A DNA stretch of 64,000 nucleotides, taken from positions 132,616 to 196,615 of the forward strand of contig NZ_DS022298.1 in NCBI RefSeq assembly GCF_000153805.1, in the 5' to 3' direction. The translations under genes were made by a program, and so were the position numbers. The notes below the pieces were generated by a model, which was given only the letters and a program-made list of their open reading frames with translations, was not told where the DNA came from and searched no databases. Numbering within the stretch: position 1 is the stretch's first letter; every line of letters starts with the position of its first letter. Shown one piece after another: positions 6,798 through 41,695 of this stretch. This stretch comes from Synechococcus sp. BL107 (GTDB lineage: Bacteria; Cyanobacteriota; Cyanobacteriia; PCC-6307; Cyanobiaceae).

Positions 6798-6898
6798 GCA
6801 TCAGAACTCAGTGCGCGAAAGGTAGGGGCGAAAACGCGTTTTGACCTGGGTTATTGATGCGTACTTCAGAATCAAACTCGATATGGACCCTCTTCGCC

Positions 6899-7933: not shown

Positions 7934-9957
7934 CCCCATCGGGACCTCTCCTCCTGGCGGGAGGTGGGCACAGCCATGCGCTTCTGCTCAAACGCTGGGC
8001 GATGAATCCGCAGTTGCGGCCAAAACGCGGGGTTGTCTTGGTGAATCGGCATCCCACGGCCTTGTATTCAGGCATGGTCCCAGGCCTGATCGCTGGGATC
8101 TATCGACGGGACGAGCTGAGTCTCAACCTGCCGCATCTCTGCGATCGAGCTGGTGTGGCCTTTGTACAGGCCGAAGTCCTAGGTGTTGATTCCCAACGCC
8201 AACATCTCCTCCTGCAAGAGCGTCCATCATTGCGCTTCGGTTTGCTCAGCCTCGATGTGGGGGCAGAGACGCGCAACGCTGACGACCTGGCTGGCGTTCC
8301 AATCAAACCGCTGGAAACAGCCCTTCAGTTTTTGTCGCAGCAAGACCCTCACGATCCAGAACCGTTTCGCATCGTTGGTGCAGGGCCAGCTGGGATCGAA
8401 GTGGCCTTAGCCCTACGCCGGCGCTGGCCCAATCGCGCACTGGAGTTGCAAGCCCGTACAGGCCAACTCAACGCCACCACAAGAGCCATCCTCCATCGCG
8501 CTGAGATTCAATGCGTCACCGACCCCATTGATCAGCCCACCCTCCTCTGCACCGGGAGTCGCGCCCCGTCTTGGCTGGCTGACAGTGGATTCGCGGTGGA
8601 TCACGACGGACGGGTGTTGACCAACCCCTTCCTCCAACTCGAGGGATACCCCCATCTGTTTGCAAGCGGCGATTGCGCCGTGATGGAGTCCCAGCCGCGG
8701 CCCGCTTCAGGGGTATGGGCGGTACGGTCTGCCCTGCCCTTGGCCAAGAATCTTGAGGCGGCCTGCAACGGCCAAAGACTGAAGCGGTGGAAGCCACAAC
8801 GCCATGCCCTGCAATTGGTTGGAACCGGGAACAACACGGCCTGGATGCAGCGAGGCCGTGCTCGCACGCAAGCGTTCACTCTGCTTTGGACCCTGAAACA
8901 ACAAATTGATCGGGCGTTTATGGCCGGTTTCAGCCAAGAATCGTCGATGGTCGCAGCCCAACCGATGGCTTGCCGGGGCTGTGCCGCCAAGCTTCCCGCA
9001 GCCCCCCTCACCGCAGCACTTTTACAAGCGGGTCTTCAAGGACAAGCGGAAGATGCCGCCAACCTCGGCGGGACACCAGCACTGCTGCAAAGCGTGGATG
9101 GCTTTCCAGCACTGGTGAGTGATCCCTGGCTCAATGGTCGACTCACCAGCCTGCATGCCTGCTCAGACCTCTGGGCTTGTGGAGCCAAGGTCACCAGTGC
9201 GATGGCAGTCATCACCCTGCCAGCCAGCCACCCCACCGAACAGCAAGAGCTGCTCCATCAGACCTTGGCAGGTGTTCAATCGGTCTTGGTTGAACAGGGA
9301 GCGTCGCTGATCGGGGGGCACACCTTGGAGTCGCGCAGTTCCACACCATCCCCGACCACCCTTGGATTACAGGTCGCCCTCAGCGTGAATGGTCAAAGTT
9401 CCGCACCTTGGGCCAAGGGGGGGATTCAGCCTGGAGATGCGCTCCTGCTGAGCCGTCCGCTTGGAGTCGGCGTAATTTTTGCCGCCGCCATGGCAGGGGT
9501 CGCCAAGCCCAAAGATGTCGAAGCGACCCTGCGCACGATGAACCAAAGCCAACATCACTTGGTGGCGGCATTGCAGAAGCATGGAGCCGACATCCATGCC
9601 TGTACCGACGTGACGGGCTTTGGATTGCTGGGACATCTCGGGGAGATGCTTCAGGGCAGCAAGTCCATCACCATTCAACTTTGGACGGATCGCATTCCCG
9701 CTCACCCGGGTGCGATGGATCTACTCGCACAAGGGCTAGCCAGCAGCCTGGCCCCCGCCAACCGGGACGCTTGGAGCTGGCTCGAGGGGCCAGTTCAGCT
9801 CAACCAATCTCCATCCCAGGCCTGTCTCGAACTACTGGTAGACCCACAAACCTGTGGGCCACTGATTGTGGCCTGCACTGCAACAGCTGCCGAAAGCCTT
9901 ACGGCACAGGATTCAGCTTGGATCCAAGTTGGCACTGCAGGATCCGGCCATGGCTAA
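7930..9957 (+). CDS. selD: FAD-dependent oxidoreductase / selenide, water dikinase fusion
   Basis: Two-domain protein of 675 residues. Residues 1-330 form a pyridine-nucleotide-disulfide-type oxidoreductase with a glycine motif at the N-terminus (LLAGGGHSHALLL), a second dinucleotide site (IVGAGPAGIEVAL) and a terminal FAD motif (LFASGDCAVM). Residues about 340-675 are SelD, which makes selenophosphate from selenide and ATP. Its active-site loop reads CRGCAAKL, matching the catalytic Cys17/Lys20 spacing of E. coli SelD with Cys, not Sec. This fusion is known in cyanobacteria and other bacteria, where selenophosphate probably supplies tRNA 2-selenouridine. The start at 7930 is set by the ATGA overlap with galE. 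The last 59 nt overlap the convergent membrane-protein gene. Confidence 0.93.
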   Translation: MTPSGPLLLAGGGHSHALLLKRWAMNPQLRPKRGVVLVNRHPTALYSGMVPGLIAGIYRRDELSLNLPHLCDRAGVAFVQAEVLGVDSQRQHLLLQERPSLRFGLLSLDVGAETRNADDLAGVPIKPLETALQFLSQQDPHDPEPFRIVGAGPAGIEVALALRRRWPNRALELQARTGQLNATTRAILHRAEIQCVTDPIDQPTLLCTGSRAPSWLADSGFAVDHDGRVLTNPFLQLEGYPHLFASGDCAVMESQPRPASGVWAVRSALPLAKNLEAACNGQRLKRWKPQRHALQLVGTGNNTAWMQRGRARTQAFTLLWTLKQQIDRAFMAGFSQESSMVAAQPMACRGCAAKLPAAPLTAALLQAGLQGQAEDAANLGGTPALLQSVDGFPALVSDPWLNGRLTSLHACSDLWACGAKVTSAMAVITLPASHPTEQQELLHQTLAGVQSVLVEQGASLIGGHTLESRSSTPSPTTLGLQVALSVNGQSSAPWAKGGIQPGDALLLSRPLGVGVIFAAAMAGVAKPKDVEATLRTMNQSQHHLVAALQKHGADIHACTDVTGFGLLGHLGEMLQGSKSITIQLWTDRIPAHPGAMDLLAQGLASSLAPANRDAWSWLEGPVQLNQSPSQACLELLVDPQTCGPLIVACTATAAESLTAQDSAWIQVGTAGSGHG

Positions 9958-11338: not shown

Positions 11339-12549
11339 CGGCTTTGCTTCAACGCCTCCAGGCGTAAACGCTTCAACTCATTGCCTAATGCGGGGCCAGA
11401 CGACCAACCATCGGCGATCAGATCCCGAGCGCTTCTCGGTGATTTCAGATGTCGCCAACGCCCCCACCAGCGCAACAACGGTTTCCATTGCGGGGGTTGC
11501 AGGCACACCATGAAGGCCACTGTTTCTGGCATCCAGCCCTGGGATTCCAGGGCCGCAGTCCAGACATCAGGGGCCGCATGAACATCAGGTGCATCTGCGG
11601 ACAACAACCAATCCCGAAGTCGCACGAGCTGCTGGAGCCACCGCTGCTGTTGACCAGGAACACCCAAGCGACGGGCAACCGCCTCAGGATCCGGAGCAGC
11701 CGCTAACCAGGCCGGTAGCAAGGGAAGTGCAAGCCGTTGCGCCCAAGCAATCCGACGGTTTCGACCCCGATCGTTCTGCAAGGACGGATCCAACAACGCC
11801 ATCGCCTTCCACTCCTCTAGACAATCGAGTGCGACAGCCCAAGGCTCAACCTCAAACAACCGATCAAGCTCCATCCGCAGGCGATTCGCCAATGCCGGTG
11901 GAGCCTTATCCGGTGCGTCATACCAATGCCACGACCATGGCCAACGCCGCACCGTGGCGGTCACTTGCTGCTTCGCCTCCGGCGACAGAACAAATCCCAA
12001 GCGAGCCGCATAACGGCATGCACGAATTACACGGGTGGGGTCATCAGACACGCTCTCGTCGTGGAGAAACAACAAACGACCGGCGGCCAAATCCTGCTGA
12101 CCTCGGTGCGGATCGATGAGCTGCCCAGACAGCAGATCCTGAGCCATCGCGTTAATCGTGAAATCGCGACGCACCAGATCAGAATCCAACGAGCCTGGTT
12201 CAACCACGGGGTTCTCAGCTGGCATGGGGTAGCTCTCCCGTCGAGCCATGGCGAAATCCAAGGCCACACCATCGAGTTTCAAAGCCACAGTGCCAAAGGC
12301 TCCATAGCTCTGAAGTGCCATCACCCGCTGCTCACCACAACGCCTCAACAACTCAGCAGCAAGGCGCATGGGATCACCTTCGAGAACCCAATCCAAATCA
12401 GGCACACCTGACCAAGCCCGGCCATAGCGCTCATGGAGCAGCCCATCCCGCACGGCGCCCCCAACCATGGCCAACCGTTTAACGCCCGCACCAATTGCCG
12501 CCGCTCGTAAGTCAGCCAGCAAAGAGGACGGCACACCGGTCAGGTTCAT
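11335..12549 (-). CDS. cca: tRNA nucleotidyltransferase (CCA- or CC/A-adding)
   Basis: Class II tRNA nucleotidyltransferase/poly(A) polymerase head. It shows GGAVRD at 26-31, the catalytic DLDW, RRDFTINAMA and DDPTRVIRACRYAARLGF. The 404 residues lack an HD domain. Cyanobacteria can use either one CCA enzyme or separate CC- and A-adding enzymes. Sequence inspection alone does not separate these. The tRNA-Arg gene in this window has no encoded CCA, so the activity is needed. The start codon lies 3 nt from the longest possible start of the divergent kdsD gene. Confidence 0.92.
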   Translation of the reverse strand: MNLTGVPSSLLADLRAAAIGAGVKRLAMVGGAVRDGLLHERYGRAWSGVPDLDWVLEGDPMRLAAELLRRCGEQRVMALQSYGAFGTVALKLDGVALDFAMARRESYPMPAENPVVEPGSLDSDLVRRDFTINAMAQDLLSGQLIDPHRGQQDLAAGRLLFLHDESVSDDPTRVIRACRYAARLGFVLSPEAKQQVTATVRRWPWSWHWYDAPDKAPPALANRLRMELDRLFEVEPWAVALDCLEEWKAMALLDPSLQNDRGRNRRIAWAQRLALPLLPAWLAAAPDPEAVARRLGVPGQQQRWLQQLVRLRDWLLSADAPDVHAAPDVWTAALESQGWMPETVAFMVCLQPPQWKPLLRWWGRWRHLKSPRSARDLIADGWSSGPALGNELKRLRLEALKQSR

Positions 12550-12552
12550 CGC

Positions 12553-13581
12553 ATGGTGTGCATGACAATGGGCCGATCATCGTGGATATCGGTCTTGTCT
12601 GCTCTGACCCGTTGCCTAGAAGAGGAAGCCTCAGCAATCGCCACTGCAGCACAACGACTCAGCAGTGATCAAGTAGAGGCTGCGATTCAACTGCTCGAAC
12701 GTTGCGCCGATCGAAAAGCCAAGCTTGTGATCACTGGGGTCGGCAAAAGCGGAATCGTGGCTCGAAAAATCGCCGCCACTTTTTCATCCATCGGCTTGAT
12801 GGCGTTGTACCTCAACCCCCTCGATGCCCTCCATGGAGATCTGGGCGTCGTAGCACCAGAAGATGTGTGCTTGATGCTCTCCAACAGTGGCGAGACAACT
12901 GAACTGCTCGAGGTTCTTCCCCATCTCAAACGTCGGGGCACCGGACGCATCGCCATCGTTGGCCGAGCCGAGTCGTCCCTTGGTCGTGGAAGCGATGTGG
13001 TGCTGGAGGCCAGCGTCGACCGCGAAGTCTGTCCGCTCAATCTGGCACCAACCGCCAGTACAGCTGTTGCCATGGCGATTGGCGACGCACTCGCAGCGGT
13101 CTGGATGGAGCGTCGAGGCATCTCGCCCGCCGATTTCGCCCTGAATCACCCAGCGGGCTCCCTGGGCAAACAACTCACGATGACTGCTGCAGACCTGATG
13201 GTTCCGGCGAGCAAATTGCACCCCCTTCAACCAGACACATCTCTTCCCGACGTGATCGGTGGATTAACCCGAGACGGAATCGGCAGCGGCTGGGTGGAAG
13301 ACCCCAATTCTCCAGGCTCTTTGTTGGGAATCCTCACGGATGGCGACCTACGACGGGCCCTGCAAGACCACAGCGCCAACAACTGGAGCACCCTTCAAGC
13401 CGCCGACCTCATGACAGCCGACCCCATCACAGTGCGTTCCGATGTGTTGGTGGTGAAAGCCTTGGAGCAGATGGAGAACAACCGACGCAAACCGATCTCT
13501 GTGCTTCCGGTGGTTGGTGACAACAAGCAGCTGATCGGTCTGTTGCGTCTCCACGATCTCGTACAAGCAGGCCTGGCATGA
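12553..13581 (+). CDS. kdsD: D-arabinose-5-phosphate isomerase (KdsD/KpsF type)
   Basis: First step of Kdo synthesis: ribulose-5-phosphate to arabinose-5-phosphate. A SIS domain occupies about 45-190, with VGKSGIVARKIAATFSS and SNSGETTELL. Two CBS domains follow (about 215-340) with ILTDGDLRRAL. The conserved His of AlHGDLGVV is present. Three ATGs at the 5' end (12553, 12562, 12568) are possible. The first is reported, and the later ones leave more room for the divergent cca promoter. It overlaps kdsC by 4 nt (ATGA). With kdsC, kdsB and kdsA nearby, the Kdo role is more likely than a gutQ-like role. Confidence 0.93.
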   Translation: MVCMTMGRSSWISVLSALTRCLEEEASAIATAAQRLSSDQVEAAIQLLERCADRKAKLVITGVGKSGIVARKIAATFSSIGLMALYLNPLDALHGDLGVVAPEDVCLMLSNSGETTELLEVLPHLKRRGTGRIAIVGRAESSLGRGSDVVLEASVDREVCPLNLAPTASTAVAMAIGDALAAVWMERRGISPADFALNHPAGSLGKQLTMTAADLMVPASKLHPLQPDTSLPDVIGGLTRDGIGSGWVEDPNSPGSLLGILTDGDLRRALQDHSANNWSTLQAADLMTADPITVRSDVLVVKALEQMENNRRKPISVLPVVGDNKQLIGLLRLHDLVQAGLA

Positions 13582-20087: not shown

Positions 20088-22348
<2,261 letters not shown>

Positions 22349-22352
<4 letters not shown>

Positions 22353-23542
22353 CTGATGTGCAGATCCTGATGAGCTTTCCAACGGAAGCCCCCTATCGGA
22401 TTGATCAAGTCACCAACAACCCCGGTCTCATGCTGAGCCTGGCCATCGGGCAAATTCTTTTAGCTGGCCTTTTGAGCCGCGTCACAGCAGCTCGCCTTTG
22501 GTGGACCACAGCCGGACTCCAGCTGATCACCATCGCCGTGTTCTTCACGCTCGCCTCTTGGGGGACCAGCGACATTGCCCGCTTTAGCCACCACTTAGCG
22601 ATCAACCCCAACGAGGTTCTGCAGGAACCCGCTTGGATCGCTGTGGCACCGCTGATCACGATGCTTCCCTACCGGCTCGCGTTCGTGCAAGGGCTCGTGA
22701 GTGCAGGATTCGCCCTAATCCCACTGCTATTGGCCCGTCAATGGCGCCGTCCCCACTGGGGCGGTTGGTGGGCGCTCCTGCTGGTGTGGTCGCCCCTACT
22801 GCGCAATTTCCTCCAAAACGGAGTCACCCGTCAGGCCCTCGCCACGCTGCTGATCACACCGTTGCTACTTCGCAGTGCGGGGTGGAGCCACCCCACCTGG
22901 CTATGGGTCGGCATCGCCATTGCGGGGTCTGGGCTGTCCCACAACAGTCTGGCGGTGACAGCAGCGCTTGCCGTGGTGCCATTGCTCACCAGGCCGGCAC
23001 TCCTTACCTCAAACAACAACAGGAAAGCCCTGCTGTTTTCGGCCGTGTTGGTGGTGGGGACAGCGCTTATCGCCTTCAGCCATCCGGCAATTCAACAAAA
23101 ACTGAACCACTACCTATTTGAAACCGGGTACTACAACACCTATGGCTTGCGCAATGAAGTGCTGGGATTGGAGCTCACTGCACTCATGGCTGTTCTACTT
23201 ACGGTTTGGCGAGCCAAGCTCAACCTGCGCTCGATGGCCTCTTGCCATGACTGCCGCACCCTGCTCGCTTACACCCTGATGCTGGGTCTCGTGCAGTTAT
23301 CCATGGCCACGGGGTTTTTGGCACCCATTGTGAGCCGCTGTCTCGACCCGATTGGACTGTTTTGGCTGCTCGCGCTTCTGGCCTGGACCTCTCGGCATCA
23401 CTGCGCGTGGACCTTGATCCCAGTCCTGGCCGTCGTCGGGGAATCATTTATCGACGATCGGATTTTGAGCCTCGAAGATTGCATCGGGGGGGATCAATTC
23501 ATGTGTCCCCCCGATCGTTGGCCTTGGCAGATCAACTACTGA
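22349..23542 (+). CDS. EpsG/Wzy-like polysaccharide polymerase
   Basis: Polytopic membrane protein of 397 residues with about ten hydrophobic helices. The segment LRNFLQNGVTRQALA resembles the R-Q-A/G-(I/L)-A loop of EpsG-family exopolysaccharide proteins, and the hydropathy fits Wzy-type polymerases. It would join lipid-linked repeat units at the periplasmic face. ATGA overlap with the upstream unknown gene places it in the kdsA unit. A strong GC-rich inverted repeat lies in its last 60 nt. The stop is 6 nt from the end of the convergent glycosyltransferase operon. Confidence 0.7.
23483..23515. repeat. GC-rich inverted repeat at the end of the EpsG-like gene
   Basis: Left arm ATCGGGGGG and right arm CCCCCCGAT form a perfect 9-bp stem with a loop of about 14 nt, inside the coding sequence 27 nt before the stop. 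There is no T-tract. It could slow or end transcripts arriving from either side of the convergent junction. Confidence 0.5.
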
Positions 23543-23548
23543 AGGCAC

Positions 23549-25294
23549 TTAAAAACGCTGAATGGCCTGGAGCAATTCAGGGGTCTTGAGGCCAAGGGAA
23601 TGCTCCAACACTTGACCTCCCGATGGCCCAGCGATGTGTGCCTGCAAGTCAGCAACGAAACGTCGGTGATCTTCATCCGGAAGGCTGATCCCACAACGCT
23701 CATGCCGCACAGCCCGGTACAGGTGATCGAGATCAGCTTTCAGACGGTCTGGTGAAGTCGGCCACTGCCAAACCAGACATCGAGCCCAATTACTGCTCAT
23801 CCGCAGCAAAACATCAGCTGGAATGCGGTTGAGATCCGTGCGCTCTAGCAAGTGATGGGCGGCAGCAGCAATGTCTCCAATCAGCTCATCCCGACCCGTC
23901 AGCAGAGCGAGATGCATCACCACGGTCCACGTGGACACCAAACGCTTCAGCCGATTGTCACGGTTCCGCCCCTGACATTGCCGGGTCGAAGGATCGGCCT
24001 CCAGCCGCCTTGCCTCAAGCATTAATTGATCAATCAGCGGAAGCGCTGCTTGGGTATCAGCGATGCGAATCAAACTCCATCCCAACGCAATGCCGGCGTA
24101 AAAGCGCTGATCCGAATCCAGCACATCAGCATTCAAAAGAGAAGCAAATAAGTCCTTTTGCTGTGTGGTGTCTTGTGGTCGCAGTCCTCGCTGAAACAAC
24201 AAGCGTTCGATCAGATCTCGCCGTTGTCTGCGGCGCAGTCGCTGGAGTGCTTCTAAAAGGGCAGGCCAATCGACCATCTCCAGCGCTAGCCAAACCGCCT
24301 GTTCGGCTCGAGCACTCTGGGAGGGACGCTGCAGCGCCTGGACCACTAGCAACGGCCAGGCCCAAAACGGACGAATCAGATACCAAGACCATCGATGGAT
24401 GGGCTTGAGCAGAAAGCGGCCGCGCACATCATTGGGCAGAAGGCGCACGGGCATGCGCACCACCAATTCCTCCGGCAGGCTGAAGAACAAGCCCCAATAA
24501 ATCCGACGACGCAACCGCTGGGCTTCGTCATCCACTTGAAGCGATGGACGGGGAATGGTTGGACGTTGCACTCTCAATGCACCGTTGGTGGGATCGGTGT
24601 CGTACACACTGCTGAGACGCTGGGCGCTCCAAGGATGACCAGCGGCCAAGAGCCGATTGGTGATCGCAGTAGCCCGTTTAAGCGATTGTGCAGACACCCG
24701 TTGCATTGCAGTGGGGGATGAAACCTCCCCAGAGCGACTGACCCGCAGGCTGGCTGAATGGGCAATCACACCAAGGGCACTCGCTGGCAACCGCTGCACC
24801 ACCACACCCTGGGCCTCAACACGGGAGCGAAAGTCCTTGTCGTCAAAGCCATAGCCCAAGAGCACTTCGTTAAATCCACCCACCTGATCAACCAATCGAC
24901 GCTCAAGTAACCATTGGCCGGCGCGACCATCGGGCCCAGTACAAAAGGCAGCCACCGGTCCAGCCGCAGCTAGTTGATCAGGCGAGGGCATGGCCTCGGG
25001 CCAACAATCGGCATCCAACTTGAACAGCCGATCACCCTGGGCCAATCGCAACGCCAAGTTGTAGGCACGGCAGAGGTGCCATTGACGCTCGCCATCGACC
25101 CGCACCAAGCGAATCCGCGAATCCGCTGGCAACTCAGCCCGGGTTAGCGGGTGCTCGCTACTCCAATCGAGGATCAAATGCTCCTGGTGATGGGGCCACC
25201 GCGCAACATGGTCGGCTGATACCAAAAGGTGAGCTCTTCGGTTCATGCATACCGTCACGATGCTGACCGTCTCAAGGCTGGGGGAATCGGTCAT
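23549..25294 (-). CDS. GT2-family glycosyltransferase with C-terminal repeat-like module
   Basis: Residues 1-190 are a GT-A domain: VSIVTVCMNRR strand, KLDADC with DAD at 94-96, then GGFNEVLLGYGFDDKDF (139-155), as in chondroitin-polymerase-like or galactosyltransferase C-terminal domains. Residues about 330-555 are helical and align with the C-terminus of the 28863-31106 gene product: LLFQRG, the QGRNRDNRLKRL stretch and EDHRRFVADL all recur. I do not know a name for this module. The gene is the last of the minus-strand glycosyltransferase operon and starts in an ATGA overlap. The sugar specificity is unknown. Confidence 0.82.
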   Translation of the reverse strand: MTDSPSLETVSIVTVCMNRRAHLLVSADHVARWPHHQEHLILDWSSEHPLTRAELPADSRIRLVRVDGERQWHLCRAYNLALRLAQGDRLFKLDADCWPEAMPSPDQLAAAGPVAAFCTGPDGRAGQWLLERRLVDQVGGFNEVLLGYGFDDKDFRSRVEAQGVVVQRLPASALGVIAHSASLRVSRSGEVSSPTAMQRVSAQSLKRATAITNRLLAAGHPWSAQRLSSVYDTDPTNGALRVQRPTIPRPSLQVDDEAQRLRRRIYWGLFFSLPEELVVRMPVRLLPNDVRGRFLLKPIHRWSWYLIRPFWAWPLLVVQALQRPSQSARAEQAVWLALEMVDWPALLEALQRLRRRQRRDLIERLLFQRGLRPQDTTQQKDLFASLLNADVLDSDQRFYAGIALGWSLIRIADTQAALPLIDQLMLEARRLEADPSTRQCQGRNRDNRLKRLVSTWTVVMHLALLTGRDELIGDIAAAAHHLLERTDLNRIPADVLLRMSSNWARCLVWQWPTSPDRLKADLDHLYRAVRHERCGISLPDEDHRRFVADLQAHIAGPSGGQVLEHSLGLKTPELLQAIQRF

Positions 25295-26445
25295 GGCAAC
25301 GAGGACCGGGCTCCTTGCTGAGCAACGCGATGGAGCAAGGCGCTCACCGCAGCCAAGTGATGCTCAACGGTGAAATTGAGGCTCATCCGCTCGTGTCCAG
25401 CCGCACCAAGCCTGGCCGCCAGCTGTGGATCACGCACCAACTGAGCCATCGCATTGGCCATGGCCTGCACGTCACCCTCCTCCACCAAAAGGCCGGTGCT
25501 GCCGTCCATCACCACCTCTGGGATCCCCGCATGCCGTGTGGCCACCACAGGCAGTCCGCTCAGCTGAGCTTCCATCACCGCCACAGGGCTTCCTTCACTA
25601 TCTCCGTCGGGTGCCACCAGGGAGTGCTGCACAAAACCACGCACTTGGCGCATCAACGCTGCAATCTCAGCAGGAGACAACACCCCAGCGAAACGCACTT
25701 GCGTCGTCAAAGACTGTTGATGCACAAGCCGTTTGGCCTCCTCCAGCATCGGACCATCCCCCACCATCACCAACCGACACGCGGATGCCAAGAACTCAGG
25801 GAGCTGATGCTGTAGACGCTCAAATGCGGCGAGGGTGAGCAACGGACCTTTCTTCGGGACAAACCGACCGACCGCCAAAAACGTCGGCGGTGCCGTTTCC
25901 GGCGAGGCGCCTTGAAATAAAGCGGCATCCGCGCCAGAAGGACTAATCAACACCCGATCGGTCTGTGCACCAAGGCTTTGCAGGGTGGAGCGCATCGGGA
26001 TGCTCTTCACAATGAACCCCGATGCCACCTGCATCAGTTGGCGATAACGCTGTTCCAAACGACGAAATTTCGATTCAGACGAGGCATCCGATCCACGGAA
26101 ATGCACCACCAACGGCACGCCACTCCAACGGGCAACATGCATCACACGAATGGCGTGGAAACCAAACTCCGCCAACACCACATCCGGTTGATGGCACCGC
26201 ACGATCAACCTCGCCACAAGAGCCGCCGGCCACGACGCAAGCCGCAACCAACCCAGCCTCGTGAAGGCTTTGCTGATCAACACCCCAACTCCATAGAGAC
26301 AACGCAGGGGCTGCATGGGAGGCCGCTCATCTCCGAAATAGGCATGCACCCGAAAGGGCAAACCCCGCAAATTGGCCCGAATGAATGTTTCCGACGCCGC
26401 ACGACGGGTGGGAGCAAACACCAGCAGGGTTGGTGGATCCATCAT
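25291..26445 (-). CDS. GT4-family glycosyltransferase
   Basis: GT-B enzyme of 384 residues. The N-terminal domain contains LVVHFRGSDAS. The C-terminal domain begins at FLAVGRFVPKKGPLLTL and has GSPVAVMEAQLSGLPVVAT with the GT4 E-x7-E type signature. The start at ATG 26445 was chosen for its ATGA overlap with the upstream gene. An extension to 26469 is possible. It is central in the operon of six glycosyltransferases and an ABC exporter, so it likely adds one sugar of a surface glycan. Confidence 0.87.
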   Translation of the reverse strand: MMDPPTLLVFAPTRRAASETFIRANLRGLPFRVHAYFGDERPPMQPLRCLYGVGVLISKAFTRLGWLRLASWPAALVARLIVRCHQPDVVLAEFGFHAIRVMHVARWSGVPLVVHFRGSDASSESKFRRLEQRYRQLMQVASGFIVKSIPMRSTLQSLGAQTDRVLISPSGADAALFQGASPETAPPTFLAVGRFVPKKGPLLTLAAFERLQHQLPEFLASACRLVMVGDGPMLEEAKRLVHQQSLTTQVRFAGVLSPAEIAALMRQVRGFVQHSLVAPDGDSEGSPVAVMEAQLSGLPVVATRHAGIPEVVMDGSTGLLVEEGDVQAMANAMAQLVRDPQLAARLGAAGHERMSLNFTVEHHLAAVSALLHRVAQQGARSSLP

Positions 26446-27680
26446 TCCATCGCCAATACCGCTTTCCAAATGGGCTCCAGGACTGGCCAGTCTTGGCTTT
26501 TCAAGCGGTCCTGAGCCGCCAAACCCAAGCGAATGCGCAACTGTGGATCGGTTTGAAGACGAAGCATGGCTCTTGCTAGTGCAGCCGCATCGTCATGGGG
26601 CACCACGAGGCCGTTCTGGCCATGGGTGACGAACTCCAATGGGCCAGGGGACGCATCATTCACGATTACGGCCAAACCAGCTGCCATGGCTTCCAGCAAG
26701 GCATTCGGCATGCCTTCCTTTCTGGATGGCAGCACGAACACGGCCGCTGCAGCCAACTCAGCATGCACGTCATGGCAATGACCGAGAAAACGAACCCGAT
26801 GCCGTACCCCACAACGCTCCGCCAACGCCTCCAAACCGACCCGCTCCGGACCATCCCCCACAAGCGTTAACGACCAACTATCCATCGACTCCGACCCATC
26901 CAACACAACGGCAAATGCCTCGATCAGAAGGTCCAATCCCTTTTGTTGGACGGCGCGGGCGATGGTCAAAAAGCCGTAGTTCTGCCCAACCTTTGACGGA
27001 CCCACAGCAACCCGGGGCAATGGATTGGGCAGCAGCATGAGGTGCTTTAAGGACGTTATGGCGCGCAAGCTATCGAGGGTGCCCTGGGCATTCGCCGTCA
27101 CCACATCAGCCCTTTGGAAAAGCAACGGCCGCAATGCTCGCCATTCGGCCGGCAAAGCATCCCGGCGAAGATCATTGCGCTCCGACACCACCAAATGAGC
27201 CTCTTTGGACCAAAGGGCCAGACAAGCCACAAGATTGGTTTTGCTTAAAAACGACAACACCCGACGGGGCGGATGATCTCGCCAATGGGCCATCAGTAGA
27301 TCTGCCCTTGGACCGACAATGCCGCGACAGCACCAAAGCATCCAACGCTGGATCCAGTCCGCATCAATTCGGGGGGTAATTCTCCCAACCATGGACGATC
27401 CAGCCACGGACACACAGAGGCGTGCCAGCCAACGATGCAGGACGCGGCTCCAACGGGATTGCTGCGTGATGGCCCGATGCAAGGAAGCACCTAAATCAAT
27501 GTGGTTAACCCCCAGAGGCAAGACGTGAAGGACCTCCTGATCGGGCAGCAAGGTAATCAGCTCCACTCGATATCCAACCTGCTGAAAATGCTCTGCCGCC
27601 AACACAGCGACTTTCTGAGCTCCGCCGGCCCCCAAGTGCGGAAGAACTAAACACAAATCAGAGCCAGCAGACCCACTCAA
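26442..27680 (-). CDS. GT4-family glycosyltransferase
   Basis: 412-residue GT-B transferase. It opens with LCLVLPHLGAGGAQKVA, the pattern of GT4 enzymes with a glycine-rich first loop. The donor half has FLTIARAVQQKGLDLLIEAF and FVLPSRKEGMPNALLEAMAAG with the catalytic-region glutamates. The start is TTG at 27680 in a TTGA overlap with the upstream gene. No ATG lies near. It resembles its upstream neighbour (27677-28870) in both opening and donor motif, so the two may be tandem paralogues. Confidence 0.87.
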   Translation of the reverse strand: MSGSAGSDLCLVLPHLGAGGAQKVAVLAAEHFQQVGYRVELITLLPDQEVLHVLPLGVNHIDLGASLHRAITQQSRWSRVLHRWLARLCVSVAGSSMVGRITPRIDADWIQRWMLWCCRGIVGPRADLLMAHWRDHPPRRVLSFLSKTNLVACLALWSKEAHLVVSERNDLRRDALPAEWRALRPLLFQRADVVTANAQGTLDSLRAITSLKHLMLLPNPLPRVAVGPSKVGQNYGFLTIARAVQQKGLDLLIEAFAVVLDGSESMDSWSLTLVGDGPERVGLEALAERCGVRHRVRFLGHCHDVHAELAAAAVFVLPSRKEGMPNALLEAMAAGLAVIVNDASPGPLEFVTHGQNGLVVPHDDAAALARAMLRLQTDPQLRIRLGLAAQDRLKSQDWPVLEPIWKAVLAME

Positions 27681-28870
27681 AGAGCCGACCTCTTGCCCCG
27701 CAGCAGTTGTTCCAAGGCATTCACAAAACGGCTACGTAATTGCGGCTCTGAATAACGGTTGCGGACCTCAAGGGCTCGATCGGCCAACCCGCGGCAGCGG
27801 TTCGGATCCATCAGCAAATCCGCCAAAGCATCGCGCCATTGATCTGGCCGAGCCCGGCGTGGCAGCAGCATGCCGTTGCGACCGTGCTGAATCAAATCCG
27901 CCGGCCCATGCGGACAATCAGAAGCAAGGCAAACACATCCATTCGCCATCGCTTCCAACAACACATTGGGGAAGCCTTCATAGCGAGATGGCAACACAAA
28001 AAAACTGCAGCGTGCGTACCAATCAGCCATGTTTCCCACCCGGCCCGGGAAATGAAGACGCTCGGCCACATCGGGTGCTTGACGCAACAGGCGGCGTAAA
28101 GCCTGCTGCTGGTTCACCCCGTGATACGGCTCAGCATCCAACCCCAAAATCACCAGCTGCAGATGAGGGAATCGACGGGCTAGGGGGATCAAAGCCCGCA
28201 CGATGACATCGAACCCTTTTTGGTGCGATTTAGTTCCTGCCCCCAAAAGAACGGGTGCGTTTTGGGGAACACCTTGATCGGCAAGCCAAACATTGGGGTC
28301 AACTTCGGGCGTGAACCTGTGCAGTGGCCACTGCACAGGATTGGGCATCAACAGCTGCGGACGCGCCGCCAACCGTTGATCTAACCATTCCCCGGTGGCG
28401 CGGGTCTGAACGAGATGCAAAGACGCCCAAGCGTAGGTAAACCGTCTCAAAATTCCCCAGGGCAAGGTCATCCGTTTCAGGGGCGGGTAGTTGCGCTCCG
28501 ACACCACGCAGGGCACGTTTAACGGCCGTGCTGCCAACAGCAGCTTCACCGATGGCTTGGTGGTCATTCCCACTGCCAGATCAATCGCTTCAGAGCGCAA
28601 CCAACGGCGCAAACGCACCACCCGCCAAGGAAAGCCCCAGCGACCAAAACGCATCAACCAAGAAGGCTCTTGGGGCTCGACGGCCCGCTGAACGCCGCTT
28701 GGGATCGGATAAAAATCAGAATCGAGGCCCTGACGCGTCAGAACAATGGGAGTCCAGCCCGACTCAGCACACCAGCGAGCGAAGGTGAGAGTTATACGTT
28801 CAGCACCACCAATCTTCAAAGAATCCACATACAAAGCGACTCTTTTTTTTGCAGGATTTTTATCAATCAT
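27677..28870 (-). CDS. GT4-family glycosyltransferase
   Basis: 397-residue GT-B transferase with VALYVDSLKIGGAERI at the N-terminus, LLGAGTKSHQKGFDVIV opening the donor domain, and FVLPSRYEGFPNVLLEAMANG as the donor signature. The closing NGMLLPRR segment is also typical. It overlaps the 747-residue gene's stop by 8 nt upstream and couples to the next GT4 downstream by 4 nt. The N-acetylhexosamine or hexose specificity cannot be told. Confidence 0.88.
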   Translation of the reverse strand: MIDKNPAKKRVALYVDSLKIGGAERITLTFARWCAESGWTPIVLTRQGLDSDFYPIPSGVQRAVEPQEPSWLMRFGRWGFPWRVVRLRRWLRSEAIDLAVGMTTKPSVKLLLAARPLNVPCVVSERNYPPLKRMTLPWGILRRFTYAWASLHLVQTRATGEWLDQRLAARPQLLMPNPVQWPLHRFTPEVDPNVWLADQGVPQNAPVLLGAGTKSHQKGFDVIVRALIPLARRFPHLQLVILGLDAEPYHGVNQQQALRRLLRQAPDVAERLHFPGRVGNMADWYARCSFFVLPSRYEGFPNVLLEAMANGCVCLASDCPHGPADLIQHGRNGMLLPRRARPDQWRDALADLLMDPNRCRGLADRALEVRNRYSEPQLRSRFVNALEQLLRGKRSAL

Positions 28871-31106
28871 TCAAACTCAAATCTTGATCAATCTGATCGA
28901 AAGAATACCAGGGGAATAAACTGAGATATTCGGCCACTTCAGACCTGCCTGGCGGTTTATTAGACAACAACAAAATGATAAATTTAGAGAAACTACTTGA
29001 CCGAAGAGTGCCCGCTTTCATATCGGCCTCAATCTCTGCCACAACCTTGATCAAATCGGCAGCAAAAACACGATGATTCTCCTGGGCAGGATTGGCCTCA
29101 TGACGTGGATCTTGGCAATAGGTGGATTGACGATCAAGTCGTATTTTTGCAGCAGAGAGAAGATCCAAATTTTGAATTTTATGGGCAAAAATAATGTCAA
29201 TCGACAGAGCACGGCACAAATTTCGCGTCATCCGATAGGACGTTTCCTGATCAATCTGGGCCGGATCAAATCGATCCATGAACCTGGCAACTCGTTGCCC
29301 AAGCATTGCCAAAGAATCCCAGTCTCCCTGCCACAAATGCAATCTCAACAAGGTGGAATAACAAGAAATCAACTGCTTGGCACGATTAGCGCGATTGGGC
29401 CGTTGACAAACCCAAGTACCCGAATCTTGCTCCAAATCGATCACGATTTGATCCAAGCTGAGAATCGCTCGAACCATTCCTGCCCTATCTCGAGATTGCA
29501 AGGCGCGATGCGCCAAAACGATCTGGCCATAGCGCCGATCCACCAAGGGCAGTGCATCCGTCCGACAGATGGCCTCAAACAGAGCAATTTGGTCGTCCAC
29601 ATCGACGGGGCGCGCACCCCGACGGAACAAAAGACGATGCAACACGGTGACCGTGCCGTGATCACACCAAAGCTCAGCAAACAAGGCCATCGCCTGATCC
29701 CAACGCCGCAAGGCCACCGCGCGTCGCGCCAAACGTTCAAGCAAACGGGTGTTCCAGGGAACGATCCGTCGTCCGAAGCGGAGCACAGCCGTCGACCAAC
29801 GACGGCAATTCAACGCCATGAACGCCTGATCCAACATCGCAAAGGGCAGGACGGTTAGACGCTGCAAAATGCTGTTGAGCAGCCCCACCCAAGGGGCATG
29901 CGATCGAAGCGGAGCAACGCGGCAACGCATCTGGTCGGGGAGCAAACCAAGCTGTTGCAACATCTCCAACATGTGTTGGGTGCGCTGGTGATACGTGTGC
30001 TGAGAGGCGCGTTCCAATCGAAGCGCCAGCGGTGGACCTGCTCCCGCCAATGCCTGTTGAATCGCAACTTCGAACTCCGCGGCGGACGGAGCACACAGCA
30101 AGGCGACATCCCGATGGGACTGCAACGAAGGGATCGCGGTTGCCACCGTGGGGCAGCCAGATGCCAAATACTCGAAGAATTTCATCGGAAACATCTGGCG
30201 TGTGTAGTCGTTCAAGCGAAGAGGGAGCAATGCCACATCGCTATGGGCCAGCCACGCAGGCAACTCTCGGTACGGCCTCACCCCCATGCCGTGCACATTC
30301 GAGAGGGCCAAAACAGAGGACAAATCCGTGGATGGATCACATTCAGCAATCGGCCCCACCAACACATAGGACCACTGAGGTGTACGGCGAATTAAGTCCT
30401 CCAACATCTCGAGATCAAGCTTGTAGGCATCGAGGGCACCCACGAACAACACCCTGGGACTCGAGACCGTGGCCAAGTCATCCGGGCAGGGCAAGTCCGA
30501 CTCCAAGGCCTGATGGAAATGGCTGGCATCCGCCACATTTCCGAAAAAATAGGTGTGCGGATTCAACGGCTTTAACCGCCGTTGCAGCTCCGGCGCCGTC
30601 GTCAACACCACATTCACTGAAGCGCAGAGATCTCGCTCACCCCTCTCAATCAAGGCCGATGGCATTCCCGGCTGATCCTGAATGCTGTCCACGCAGTGAT
30701 ACACGGACCCACTGAAATTATTGAGGGCCAAATACAACCGAGTGAGCGGGTTGTAGCTCCAAAGCAGCGGCTTGTGAAAACGCAGCAACCTGAGCACGAA
30801 GGCCAAGCCAGCGCGAAACAAACCTCGATTGAGTGTTAACGCACGGCCCTTGGTTCCTCCTGGCAATACGGCCGGGGACCAAACCCATAGGTTTTGTCGC
30901 ACCTGACGCGGTGGCCGCAACATTCTTTGAAGCCGCCGCACAATCCTCAACCCATCGGATGTGCTGGCCCGAGGAGGACGCAAGCCAAGGGATTCGACGT
31001 AGAGAACTCGGTGTCCGTTTTCCACCAAACTCAGAGCCGTGTGCTGCTTGTTGGTCCAGAGCGGATGATCCCAATCAGCCGTTGCAAGAACAACAAAATC
31101 AGCCAT
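28863..31106 (-). CDS. GT-B glycosyltransferase with C-terminal repeat-like module
   Basis: 747 residues in two parts. Residues 1-390 are a GT-B transferase: LATADWDHPLWTNKQH start, LWSYNPLTRLYL, VLFVGALDAYKLDLEML and PMKFFEYLASGCPTVAT. This is the pattern of GT1/GT4-like capsule enzymes. Residues about 455-690 carry the same helical module found at the end of the 23549-25294 product. The shared pieces are LLFRRG at 492-497, CQRPNRANRAKQL near 567-579, and ENHRVFAADL. It starts 5 nt after the ABC exporter stop. The 3' third is a little more AT-rich than the 5' part. Confidence 0.82.
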   Translation of the reverse strand: MADFVVLATADWDHPLWTNKQHTALSLVENGHRVLYVESLGLRPPRASTSDGLRIVRRLQRMLRPPRQVRQNLWVWSPAVLPGGTKGRALTLNRGLFRAGLAFVLRLLRFHKPLLWSYNPLTRLYLALNNFSGSVYHCVDSIQDQPGMPSALIERGERDLCASVNVVLTTAPELQRRLKPLNPHTYFFGNVADASHFHQALESDLPCPDDLATVSSPRVLFVGALDAYKLDLEMLEDLIRRTPQWSYVLVGPIAECDPSTDLSSVLALSNVHGMGVRPYRELPAWLAHSDVALLPLRLNDYTRQMFPMKFFEYLASGCPTVATAIPSLQSHRDVALLCAPSAAEFEVAIQQALAGAGPPLALRLERASQHTYHQRTQHMLEMLQQLGLLPDQMRCRVAPLRSHAPWVGLLNSILQRLTVLPFAMLDQAFMALNCRRWSTAVLRFGRRIVPWNTRLLERLARRAVALRRWDQAMALFAELWCDHGTVTVLHRLLFRRGARPVDVDDQIALFEAICRTDALPLVDRRYGQIVLAHRALQSRDRAGMVRAILSLDQIVIDLEQDSGTWVCQRPNRANRAKQLISCYSTLLRLHLWQGDWDSLAMLGQRVARFMDRFDPAQIDQETSYRMTRNLCRALSIDIIFAHKIQNLDLLSAAKIRLDRQSTYCQDPRHEANPAQENHRVFAADLIKVVAEIEADMKAGTLRSSSFSKFIILLLSNKPPGRSEVAEYLSLFPWYSFDQIDQDLSLND

Positions 31107-31111
31107 AGCGA

Positions 31112-32929
31112 TCAGGTGGCTTCAAACTGCGTCATTTCACGGAACGATTCCGACTGCGCGCACAAGGCATCGAAATCGCCAGCGGCTTTAATCACACCAT
31201 TTTCAATCTCATAAATACGATCGCATTTGCGAACAGTCGATAAACGATGCGCAATCACAATGGTCGTACAACGTCGTCCGACTAAATCCAGAGCTTGCAT
31301 CACATCGTTCTCAGTTTTATTATCCAAAGCACTCGTCGCTTCATCTAGGACTAATACTTTGGCACCACGATAAAAAGCACGAGCTAATGACAATCTCTGT
31401 CGCTGACCTCCAGAGAGTTTGATTCCATTCTCACCAATCATGGTAAATAAGCCATAGGGCATATCAGAGACGACATCATCAAATTGGGCATTCTCTAAAG
31501 CAGACCAGATTTGGTCATCATCAATATTTTCAGGGTCGATACCAAAGGCCACATTTTCACGAATACTCGTGTCAAGCAAACGAATATCTTGTGGAACCAA
31601 AGCGCAATTAGCCTGCCAAGCCGGCAACTCCTCTGGCATCAAGGGAACACCATCCAAACGCAGTCCTCCCTCACTGGGGTGATACAAACCCAAAAGCAGA
31701 TGGGCCAACGTTGTTTTTCCACTTCCCGTTCGACCGACCAAAGCGATGCGTGATCCCACAGGAATCGTGAGATCAATCTGAGATAGAACATCCCGGTCGC
31801 TTCCGGCATAGCGGAAACTGACCTGCCGGAGCTGAATCGACTGACGTGGCCTCACCCCAGATGCCGTCGGGATGCTGGGCGACGTCGACTCCATCCGCAC
31901 AGGTCGAAGTGCCAAGAGCTCAAGAGCGTCTTGAATTTCTGGCAATCCACCCCGCAATTTGTTGATATTACGGAAGGTGTTCTGCATCGGCGCAGAAATT
32001 CTCAAAAGTGTGCCAAGAACTGCCGCAAGGGTAGGAATCGCCTGGCGTACATCTCCAACATCTCCATTAAAAACAGCTGGCCCTAAACCAAGAACAAATA
32101 AAATTGTGATTCCAGCTGGCTCGATGACATAGCGGGGAACATCAGGAAGCAGTTTTGTGATTCGGTCATAGCGCTTTGCAATCAGACCATCACGGGAAAA
32201 GCGGCCAATAAAAAATTGATCAGCGGAATACAACTGAACATCACGCATGGAACGCAACGATTCCATCAGCAGCAAATTAATCCTGCGGGAATAACGTACC
32301 CGTTGCTTCGTCGCGAAGCGCAGGTAGGGAATGATTAACTTCGACGCCAAGCCATAGGCCAATAACATCAAGCTAAACATTGCCAACGCAGGCAAACCAA
32401 GAACAAGAACAACACCAACCAACAAGACCACCACAGACAATGCATTACCTGCGATGGTGATCATTGGACTCACCACAGATGTGGATACTTTATTGAGGAT
32501 TCGATTGAAGGTTTCCGAAAGATTAGCTGTTCGATGTTGAGTGAAAAATTCATAATTTTGCAACATCAAATTGCGATAAACCTTATTAACGAGATCATTC
32601 CAAATTTCAGCACTCAGCATGCTTTGGAGATAAGCCACGCCAAAGCGAATGGCCGAGGTGACCCAAAAAGCAACAATCAATAATCCCAGCAACCACCCTG
32701 CTTGATCGAGGATTCCACCACCAAACACCCGAATTCCAGGAATCTGGTCGGTGAGCTTTACGCCTGCCATTAAGCCCACCAGCCGCGCCAGCAAACCGAC
32801 AAGCAAGATGTCCATCAGGCCCTGAAGAAACGAGGCCAGAAGAACGACAATTAAAAATCGAACACGACTCGCCGGCAGCTCCTTGAGCAGGCGGCTGAGA
32901 TCTCTCCAAGTCTGACTTCGAACAGGCAT
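31112..32929 (-). CDS. ABC exporter, MsbA/lipid-linked glycan type
   Basis: Half-size ABC transporter of 605 residues: a six-helix membrane domain in about 1-330 and an ATPase domain in about 365-600. Walker A is GRTGSGKTT, the signature is LSGGQRQRL, and Walker B is VLVLDEATSALD. There is no peptidase or cNMP domain, so this is not the type I secretion kind lost at 5.7 kb. Its position at the head of the glycosyltransferase run suggests export of a lipid-linked oligosaccharide, as with PglK or MsbA. The substrate assignment is inference. Confidence 0.88.
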   Translation of the reverse strand: MPVRSQTWRDLSRLLKELPASRVRFLIVVLLASFLQGLMDILLVGLLARLVGLMAGVKLTDQIPGIRVFGGGILDQAGWLLGLLIVAFWVTSAIRFGVAYLQSMLSAEIWNDLVNKVYRNLMLQNYEFFTQHRTANLSETFNRILNKVSTSVVSPMITIAGNALSVVVLLVGVVLVLGLPALAMFSLMLLAYGLASKLIIPYLRFATKQRVRYSRRINLLLMESLRSMRDVQLYSADQFFIGRFSRDGLIAKRYDRITKLLPDVPRYVIEPAGITILFVLGLGPAVFNGDVGDVRQAIPTLAAVLGTLLRISAPMQNTFRNINKLRGGLPEIQDALELLALRPVRMESTSPSIPTASGVRPRQSIQLRQVSFRYAGSDRDVLSQIDLTIPVGSRIALVGRTGSGKTTLAHLLLGLYHPSEGGLRLDGVPLMPEELPAWQANCALVPQDIRLLDTSIRENVAFGIDPENIDDDQIWSALENAQFDDVVSDMPYGLFTMIGENGIKLSGGQRQRLSLARAFYRGAKVLVLDEATSALDNKTENDVMQALDLVGRRCTTIVIAHRLSTVRKCDRIYEIENGVIKAAGDFDALCAQSESFREMTQFEAT

Positions 32930-39799: not shown

Positions 39800-39853
39800 G
39801 CAAGAATGCCGACTCGCAGAACAAAAACCAGTCATATCGATCGTCAACGCGCC

Positions 39854-41695
39854 ATGAGCGATCAACCGAACGCTGTCGAAGGATTAAGCGGCGATATAGC
39901 CCTGCGGCGACTGTTGATCGCGCTTTTCACCATCAGCAGCTTGGGCATGGGCTGTTGGCTCTGGATGCAACACAACAGGGCGTTTCTTCCCCTACCAGAC
40001 TCAAAATCCGGAAGAGCCCTTCTTCGCCAGTACCAGGAGCTCACCCATGACATCTGGTTGATTCTGCTGCTGCTTGCAGTGGGATATCTGATCAACAGGA
40101 TTTACGTCAGCAGACAACGAGAGGCATATAAAAGCGACCGCACTTTTCCACATCCGGTGAAATCCTGTCTGCGATTTTTTCGCAACAACCCCATCACAAC
40201 AGTCCTTCTCATCGCTTACATCATGGCGATGATTTCAGGCACAACCTATCTCTACAAAGATATGTTTGGCTGGTATCCAGACCTGGTGAAAGGATATTTT
40301 CTCGACAACTTCTCTGTGCGAGACAGCTTCATTTCAGAGACGATGCGTCGTACGGACTATCGCTTCTTTCCCCTCGCCCATCAGGATCTTCACATTCTGA
40401 GTTGGTTCAGCATTCATATCAAAACCTGGATGCTCTTCAGCGGAGCGGAGCTCATCGGCATCATTCTTTTGAGCGTTAAATTCCTCAACAACCTAGAAGA
40501 ACGGTCATCGGCGAAAGCATCAACCATACTGTTAATGACATCACTACTACTCATTCACCCCTCAACGGGAACAGCTTTTTTTCACGTTATTTACTGTGAA
40601 AGACTACTGTGCCTGATATTCGTGCTCTACATCAATGCATACCTAATCCATATCAAGACAGGAAGCGATTCATCGTTCTATACGACACTCCTATGGGCCC
40701 TAATTGGGATCTATATTAAAGACATTGCTATTCTACTATTCATCATACCGCCCGCAAGTATTTGGGCCAGAGAGATATTCAGAATTCAGCCTAAAGACGA
40801 GCAGCGCGAGCCCATTCGTGCACCAATTGAGCGAAACAAAAAACTCGAATATTGGCTCTGCAGTCTTTCACTACTGTTCATCACAAGCTACATCGTTTTA
40901 GCCTTGATTCCCAGCAGTTATGCATCCGAAGGGGCCTACAATGAAAATGCTGCATACAACATTTTTCTTGACCTACGCTTTTACATTTTTGCACTAATTG
41001 CAATATACCGAGCAATCGGAATCACCAACAAAAAGACCCAATTCCATCTCCTCGATGCTATCAATCTCTCGGGCTTTGCATACGCATTCGCCCTTGCCGC
41101 TACATATGAATTCGACGCGAGCAGCTACCTTGCACTCCCTTTTCAACTGATTGCAGCCATCAATATCGCCTGGGCATGGACCTTACTGATAGAGAGATAT
41201 AGAGACCAGAGCGCCAGGGAAAGGGAAAAAATTATTGGAGCCATTCTTACATCTATAGCTGTTATCCTCGCTGATCATCGGATAGCTAGAGACACATTTA
41301 TCAATAACACCATAGAACAAAAATTCGAACAGTCTTACATTCAATTGACCTACGAAAAACTGGATAAAACCAGTCGAGAAATCCGCGAATCTGGCGATGA
41401 CGTAAACATCATCGTCAATAAAAAATCAAGATTTTCAGTCAAGCGTCACTTAAATCGAATCCCCTACAGCTCTTTAATTGAATACATGCCAAATGAAAAT
41501 CAATTTATTATCAAAGACGGCGCCCACAAAGGCTCCATCTACATACCGAAGGTCGGCGATCTAATTGCGAACCTTGACAAAAACATCAGCCTGATTGAGC
41601 CAATCCTGAAAAATCTCGAGACGGACCTGATCTACCAGCACAATCCCAGCGAACGAACCGGGATTATCCGCAGAGTCACGGCTATTCGGAATTGA
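39854..41695 (+). CDS. Polytopic membrane protein of unknown function
   Basis: 613 residues from the preferred start at 39854 (MSDQPNAVEGL). An ATG at 39806 is also in frame. About ten hydrophobic helices lie in the first 450 residues and a soluble tail of about 140 residues follows. The layout resembles membrane glycosyltransferases or polymerases, but I see no decisive motif. From about 40100 on, the base composition is clearly lower in GC than icd before it and glcF after it, which suggests acquisition by transfer. Function unknown. Confidence 0.65.
   Translation: MSDQPNAVEGLSGDIALRRLLIALFTISSLGMGCWLWMQHNRAFLPLPDSKSGRALLRQYQELTHDIWLILLLLAVGYLINRIYVSRQREAYKSDRTFPHPVKSCLRFFRNNPITTVLLIAYIMAMISGTTYLYKDMFGWYPDLVKGYFLDNFSVRDSFISETMRRTDYRFFPLAHQDLHILSWFSIHIKTWMLFSGAELIGIILLSVKFLNNLEERSSAKASTILLMTSLLLIHPSTGTAFFHVIYCERLLCLIFVLYINAYLIHIKTGSDSSFYTTLLWALIGIYIKDIAILLFIIPPASIWAREIFRIQPKDEQREPIRAPIERNKKLEYWLCSLSLLFITSYIVLALIPSSYASEGAYNENAAYNIFLDLRFYIFALIAIYRAIGITNKKTQFHLLDAINLSGFAYAFALAATYEFDASSYLALPFQLIAAINIAWAWTLLIERYRDQSAREREKIIGAILTSIAVILADHRIARDTFINNTIEQKFEQSYIQLTYEKLDKTSREIRESGDDVNIIVNKKSRFSVKRHLNRIPYSSLIEYMPNENQFIIKDGAHKGSIYIPKVGDLIANLDKNISLIEPILKNLETDLIYQHNPSERTGIIRRVTAIRN

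Follow-up and report, generated by a model that had tools for sequence, protein, structure and literature searches.

A clade-restricted, TPR-like helical module shared by two glycosyltransferases of different fold in a Synechococcus gene cluster

Introduction

Helical tetratricopeptide repeat (TPR) domains occur on several enzymes of glycan assembly, and a comparable arrangement is described here for Synechococcus sp. BL107. In a 64,000-nucleotide stretch of its contig NZ_DS022298.1 (hereafter the window, to whose full length all coordinates refer), two glycosyltransferases (GTs), P0001 of GT-A type and P0002 of GT-B type, end in the same predicted helical module. One system of similar plan is OGT, a GT41 enzyme with N-terminal TPRs, in which a TPR solenoid is likewise joined to a GT-B enzyme; the P0002 module differs in being C-terminal and in sitting on a GT4-like enzyme. 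Another is LapB (YciM), which regulates LpxC turnover and has a rubredoxin part. It resembles the module in bringing a TPR-type solenoid to envelope-glycolipid synthesis, and it is a weak structural match (Foldseek E 2.5e-2 to 6.1e-2).

The TagF-like capsule polymerases Cps1B, Cps3D and Cps7D also carry a helical TPR domain on glycan enzymes containing GT-A or GT-B folds. According to the accessible portions of the two reports, Cps1B remains active without its TPR domain, through which it oligomerises (PMC5974469), and in Cps3D and Cps7D the domain is needed for linker elongation and processivity (PMC11666461). The same portion of the latter describes TPR and catalytic modules in one enzyme in all analysed CpsD homologues, and notes that synthase-dependent systems sometimes make the TPR domain as a separate protein (PMC11666461). 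These published domains support, in turn, docking, acceptor-handling and self-association readings of the module. The likeness is one of plan, by description, and not of proven common descent: the polymerases have their own TagF-like transferase domain, whereas P0001 and P0002 have no such Pfam match at E <= 0.1, and the TPR domain is fused in all CpsD homologues analysed in that report, whereas the module described here occurs both fused and free. A TPR-like helical bundle is further described, in the available part of the source, for the glycan-assembly enzyme ORF7 of Klebsiella O4, a chain terminator in which a coiled coil follows the bundle (PMC11231755).

Since TPR domains on GT-A or GT-B glycan enzymes, and also as separate proteins, are already known, the plan itself is not new. 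What is new, as far as the literature search reached, is a clade-restricted family with its own polar signature whose members, at one kind of locus, stand alone or on either of two GT folds. Among the titles and abstract openings searched, with most subscription papers outside the scope, none described this cluster or module. The preferred reading, given a probability of about 0.5, is that the module is a lineage-specific, TPR-derived alpha-solenoid that docks GTs into a surface-glycan assembly line; it draws on homology, gene context and predicted fold.

Homology and sequence signature

Both open reading frames (ORFs) lie at the coordinates given in the sequence-only reading; they are on the minus strand, with three GT4-type genes between. 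Their parts are as follows.

23549-25294, minus: P0001 gene, ORF of 581 aa
24335..25294, minus: GT-A catalytic part, P0001 residues 1-320 (Pfam Glyco_transf_7C E 2.7e-6, Glycos_transf_2 4.3e-4)
23633..24328, minus: shared module on the GT-A enzyme, P0001 residues 323-554 (BLASTP to P0002, GT-B-only profile, invariant columns)
28863-31106, minus: P0002 gene, ORF of 747 aa
29931..31106, minus: GT-B (GT4-like) catalytic part, P0002 residues 1-392 (Pfam Glyco_trans_1_4 2.8e-14)
29886..29930, minus: predicted flexible linker, P0002 residues 393-407 (low confidence, <50, in the full-length model)
29649..29870, minus: TPR-like hairpins opening the solenoid, P0002 residues 413-486 (superposition on human OGT TPRs)
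29028..29759, minus: shared module core on the GT-B enzyme, P0002 residues 450-693 (BLASTP, profile, motifs, AlphaFold model)

The sequence-only reading had claimed that the two GTs, although of different fold, share a C-terminal module, and profile searches between the two bear this out. Residues 361-555 of P0001 align with 488-690 of P0002 at 30% identity (BLASTP, E = 3e-15). A hidden Markov model (HMM) built from 28 GT-B-linked modules, with the window sequences excluded, finds P0001 357-551 at 89.0 bits, and one built from 5 GT-A-linked modules, with the window and locus L106 excluded, finds P0002 469-690 at 133.1 bits. Among 1000 proteins whose C-termini had been shuffled, the highest score with any of the four profiles run was 10.7 bits, and chance similarity is ruled out by this comparison of other-class profiles with shuffles. 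On these sequence comparisons the module is genuine and common to both C-termini. It extends over about 323-554 of P0001 and about 450-693 of P0002 (about 230-245 residues), with extra helices flanking it on both sides in P0002. When a 211-residue P0001 module query was run against the 2.285 Mb genome, it matched itself and the P0002 module (E = 2.4e-13), and no other match at E <= 10 was found anywhere in that genome.

The module is unnamed, as had been supposed. The C-terminal halves of P0001 and P0002 have no Pfam match at E <= 0.1, and over 15 members neither Pfam nor NCBIfam offers a fitting model: the best are weak TPR matches (best E 8.1e-4), any single TPR model matches at most 1-3 of the 15 sequences, and NCBIfam gives two chance-level matches. 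Among PDB sequences, the module profile has no match at E <= 1.

The motif cores LF, N-R-x-N-x-x-K and E-x-H are kept in at least 90% of 34 diverse members, in which the R of the RP after LF, one Tyr, one Ser and R-x3-N-x2-R are invariant. The motifs proposed from the sequence alone hold in these cores and not in their outer letters, such as F-x-A-D-L, which vary. In a 15-row alignment the invariant residues of P0001 are L366, F367, R372, P373, Y399, C440, N444, R445, N447, K450, S454, R498, N502, R505, L507, E541 and H543; the P0002 motifs are LLFRRG-RP (492-500), C-x3-NRxNRxK (567-577), RxTRNxxR (625-632) and QENH (675-678). The cores are alike whichever enzyme is attached, so the module should contact something common to the pathway. 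The P0001 catalytic part is itself homologous to stand-alone GT-A genes of about 325 aa in other genomes, and its KLDADCW and GYGFDDKD stretches are presumably the GT-A metal and acceptor motifs.

Distribution

The search for the module in other picocyanobacteria, which the sequence-only reading had suggested, was positive in 57 of 300 sampled genomes of the window's family (52 of 196 high-quality ones; 12 of 59 genera) and in 21 of 34 genomes of its genus. A class sample gave matches in 20 of 388 genomes, 19 of them in the window's family and one marginal outside it (E 0.0096), and a phylum sample searched with a broader 34-row profile gave 13 of 319, all in the family; viral contigs searched with a GT-B-type module query gave none. 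The module is a clade-restricted family for which no model exists. Hosts with a name comprise Synechococcus strains and Prochlorococcus sp. MIT 0701, which points to Cyanobiaceae as the family. Three contigs of metagenome-assembled genomes labelled Gammaproteobacteria carry this picocyanobacterial operon (L107, L109 and L117; L-numbers denote loci and G-numbers genomes of the comparison set). They are probably misbinned, because their gene order is identical and their tree distance to picocyanobacteria is short.

The module follows the GT-B locus. GT-B orthologues occur in 75 of the 300 family genomes at E <= 1e-30 (60 of 196 high-quality ones; that of G130 is doubtful at 28% identity), and the GT-A enzyme occurs in 34 of 300 at E <= 1e-20. 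GT-B is present in 55 of the 57 module genomes, the exceptions being a 79%-complete genome and a doubtful match. Among genomes with GT-A, the module was found in 13/13 that also have GT-B and in 0/21 that lack it. A Fisher test of co-occurrence gives p = 1.55e-40 for genomes that are not independent of one another.

Loci L142-L152, L154 and L159 carry the GT-A family without GT-B, several as tandem pairs, and have no detectable module. The possibility that a divergent module had been missed next to GT-B or GT-A genes without one was checked with a 61-sequence HMM in 38 loci and rejected: the only new matches had E 0.38 and 0.91, and the search also recovered three loci of genomes already known to carry the module.

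Fused, free and broken forms

A tally made by hand over the 57 genomes with the module gives 31 in which it is fused to an intact GT-B; the open frame of the fusion is 738-772 codons long, and 673 in one case. Two of these 31, the window's genome and G024, carry GT-A+module besides. A free module gene is present in 21 genomes, and GT-A+module without an intact GT-B fusion in three. The remaining two have stop-ridden copies only (G029) and a doubtful 61-residue match (G161). A long frame around GT-B in G184 turned out to be a plain GT-B with an open frame upstream.

A plain GT-B accompanies the free module in 18 of the 21 genomes; of the other three, G183 has it fused to a GT4, G133 has a partial one, and in G015 (79% complete) none was found. 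The free frame is open before the stop of the preceding gene, or opens at most 3 bases from it, in 17 of the 21 loci; in two others the gap is 64 and 135 bases, and in two the preceding gene is uncalled. The genes directly ahead are of several kinds: a plain GT-A of about 325 aa (L067 and L073, and by coordinates L076, L078 and L080), the GT-B gene itself, a TupA-like ATP-grasp gene (PF14305, E 7e-29), a gene for a Wzy_C-type membrane protein (E 1.6e-7) or a gene from a cluster of sulfotransferase-type sequences, with one member checked for each of the last three.

The idea that the module only lets its own enzyme self-associate, or brings the GT-A and GT-B modules together as a pair, bears on these architectures. 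The window has one module copy on each of two enzymes, and by analogy with Cps1B, which in the accessible text elutes as a dimer to trimer when the TPR domain is present but as a monomer when it is missing (PMC5974469), such a role could be imagined. A single module match in 53 of the 57 positive genomes means that GT-A/GT-B pairing is not general, however, and a module free of any enzyme would be pointless for enzyme self-association; this explanation is considered unlikely.

Several loci show rearranged or decayed forms. In G183 (L140:7888-10305) a single frame of 806 aa joins GT-B to the GT4-type enzyme that follows, and the free module lies about 14 kb further on. The free modules of L084, L103 and L104 open with 44-48 residues that match the beginning of the TupA-like protein at 52-61% identity, a scar of the deletion by which the two were joined. 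In L087 (G029:C1:422000-441500) the GT-B domain is open (392 aa, 6793-7968), and the module and the entire GT-A+module gene are interrupted by stops (at about 8113-8781 and 11600-13240), so that both module copies are decayed.

Phylogeny and selection

The module tree holds 57 rows, with 4 duplicate loci and the broken L087 left out and one genus locus added; it is midpoint-rooted and has several long branches. One clade (support 99/99) contains 27 GT-B fusions, 2 fragments and 5 free modules, and a second (99/97) contains 6 GT-A fusions and 5 free modules. The free modules of the GT-B clade lie one gene behind GT-B in 5/5 cases, and those of the GT-A clade have a GT-A gene upstream, with none or one gene between, in 5/5. 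The modules of P0001 and P0002 fall in different well-supported clades, and recent copying between them is therefore unsupported. The two copies in the window appear to be old paralogues, each grouped with modules that travel with the same GT type. Because each clade holds free modules near that GT type, the partnership may predate fusion. Given the starred branches, the GT-A label must have changed at least twice. The earlier statement that the module was moved needs refining, since it was not simply transferred between the enzymes of this operon.

For the module, the ratio of nonsynonymous to synonymous substitution rates (dN/dS) is 0.18 and 0.22 for the window against L106 (P0001 module 0.18) and 0.12 and 0.15 for two other pairs; for the catalytic parts of three comparable pairs it is 0.09, 0.15 and 0.10. 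These values point to purifying selection on the module. It is very unlikely that the module is a degenerate, function-poor TPR tail carried by chance. Its weak TPR similarity, its absence from many relatives and the stop-ridden copies of G029 would suit such a tail; dN/dS of 0.12-0.22, near-invariant motif cores and maintenance as a separate gene in 21 genomes speak against it.

Predicted structure

An AlphaFold model of P0002 residues 400-747, built on a 19-row alignment, consists of helices only, with a mean predicted local distance difference test score (pLDDT) of 91.7 and a predicted template modelling score (pTM) of 0.89. The full-length P0002 model (17 rows, pLDDT 86.4) shows a GT-B enzyme, the linker 393-407 (pLDDT <50) and the solenoid, and its GT-B part is nearest to MshA and PglA in Foldseek. 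For the module model Foldseek gave no match at E <= 0.001 (best E 7.6e-3); the TPR proteins LGN, LapB and OGT are among the first 50 matches. Residues 413-486 (model residues 14-87) superpose on human OGT TPRs at 2.3 Å over 72 residues (VIA-align, Z 10.1), whereas longer stretches fit OGT only at about 9-10 Å. Alignments of at least 190 residues deviate by about 5-15 Å with Z no higher than 12, values that unrelated helical repeats also reach, and the proteasome-lid, Acl4, APC/C and LGN rows that head the VIA-align results were set aside as common helical-repeat likeness only.

The model thus presents a predicted solenoid of antiparallel helical hairpins, a trait of the TPR superfamily, that aligns with many TPR chains. 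TPR sequence models recognise neither P0001 nor P0002 at E <= 0.1, and for this reason the module is filed as TPR-like or TPR-derived and not as a recognised TPR family. The possibility of ordinary TPR helices, raised beforehand, is therefore realised in part: the alpha-solenoid and its fit to the OGT repeats agree with it, and the missing TPR sequence match and the family-specific polar core do not.

Near-invariant residues lie in loops and at helix starts of the model; this polar signature belongs to the part beyond the roughly 75 N-terminal residues that resemble genuine TPRs. In model numbering, LLFRRGxRP lies at the end of helix 88-95 and beyond it, NRxNRxK runs from ahead of helix 176-194 into it, RxTRN flanks the break at 226-228, and QEDH comes before helix 279-299. 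Because NRxNRxK, RxTRN and QEDH precede alternate helices, the predicted helix order implies that they should share one edge of the solenoid.

Such an edge could instead handle the acceptor, with the conserved Arg, Asn, Lys and His binding the growing glycan or its lipid-diphosphate carrier and feeding the attached enzyme, which would raise processivity or influence acceptor choice. This is the main alternative, less probable than docking. The near-invariant R, N, K, E and H sit in the model as they might in an anion-binding site, and cores that are alike for either enzyme are expected of a pathway-wide ligand. By analogy, in the portion of the report available, Cps3D and Cps7D with truncated TPRs fail to extend the poly(Gro3P) linker and show a loss of processivity (PMC11666461). 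Acceptor handling would, however, oblige the free form of 21 genomes to pass the acceptor in trans, and the module is missing where GT-B and exporter persist.

Gene neighbourhood

The genes around P0001 and P0002 that enter into the proposed assembly line are the following; the three that separate the two enzymes overlap.

25291..26469, minus: GT4-type gene (Pfam Glycos_transf_1 2.7e-33)
26442..27680, minus: GT4-type gene (Pfam Glyco_trans_1_4 7e-37)
27677..28870, minus: GT4-type gene (Pfam Glyco_trans_1_4 7.3e-30)
31112..32929, minus: full-length ATP-binding cassette (ABC) exporter (Pfam ABC_membrane + ABC_tran), cluster c2, directly upstream of P0002
33012..34049, minus: GT-like gene at the head of the cluster, cluster c3 (Pfam Glycos_transf_1 2.9e-6)

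The exporter is called in 47 of the 57 displayed loci and the head-of-cluster gene is present in 42 of 57. On the plus strand, an overlapping gene pair (21318-22352 and 22349-23542) converges on the GT-A gene and has no Pfam match at E <= 0.1; the product of the second presumably is a polytopic membrane protein, with a likeness to EpsG. A 629-aa protein encoded at 39806-41695, plus (cluster c7), recurs near the operon in other genomes, and its homologue at L104:1271-3076 has no Pfam match at E <= 0.01. The remaining flanking genes include some that we take to encode heme oxygenase, KdsA and KdsB.

Proposed function

In the docking reading, the module would be attached to GT-A or GT-B, or supplied by the same cluster as a subunit of its own, and would position the GT-B, GT-A and GT4-type enzymes in a single cytoplasmic line for the assembly of a surface glycan, next to the full-length ABC exporter. 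A common partner would be bound through the conserved NRxNRxK / RxTRN / QEDH edge; it would be one of the assembly-line proteins and not a sugar or lipid. That the module is fused or adjacent to such enzymes and follows the GT-B locus suggests that it acts much like a subunit of one enzyme assembly. Among the cluster genes, the GT4-type enzymes track the module best: cluster c0 of this type lies near the module in 43 of 44 loci (13 of the 57, comprising duplicates, short contigs and the broken one, being omitted) and near GT-B in 2 of the 18 module-free loci fetched among 20 such genomes, an association that is confounded by phylogeny and compares two locus sets labelled by different rules.

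Beyond this confounding, several observations weigh against the proposal. In 20 genomes, of which 9 are 90% complete or more, GT-B is kept and no module is detectable, so that the module is dispensable; one of the module-free genomes, G258, nevertheless keeps three GT4-type genes. In its gap of about 460 bases behind GT-B, no clear module relic was found (best tblastn E 0.09). Strictly conserved R, N, K, E and H are commoner in small-ligand or active sites than in protein docks, and the PDB matches amount to a middling helical-repeat likeness (Z up to 12, E 7.6e-3) by which function is not established. The module is less constrained than its catalytic domain in 2 of 3 pairs. In the tree, L073 and L076 (free, behind GT-A) and L077 (a GT-A fusion on a long branch) fall outside the GT-A clade, in a weak group (79/67) with nine free modules; L081, L084, L103 and L104 (free, directly behind GT-B) group with TupA-side modules, the rest of the nine lying behind a TupA-like gene.

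The ABC exporter, put forward earlier as an example of a common docking partner, is not favoured as the sole one, given the 20 GT-B genomes without the module and the ABC gene retained in 18/18 of the module-free GT-B loci read. Docking to the assembly line is ranked ahead of acceptor binding, and acceptor binding ahead of self-association. A rather improbable variant would make the module a swappable acceptor-carrying cassette, a TPR-derived solenoid with an evolved site for the lipid-linked glycan of the pathway, passed between GT folds or serving on its own as a shuttle, so that it is supplied to any step at which the acceptor must be held.

Biological significance

According to the accessible part of a 2015 phylum survey, marine Synechococcus and Prochlorococcus are without most polysaccharide-export genes (PMC4594306). 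In contrast, 75 of the 300 sampled genomes of the family have the GT-B of this cluster, as a rule beside an ABC exporter. The GTs of Synechococcus genomic islands are suspected of a part in grazer and phage avoidance, in the portion of that report available (PMC2441476). An unnamed module family would flag enzymes that work together in the cluster, and the natural series of fused, free and lost forms makes the role of a TPR-type domain for GTs testable with ready-made variants.

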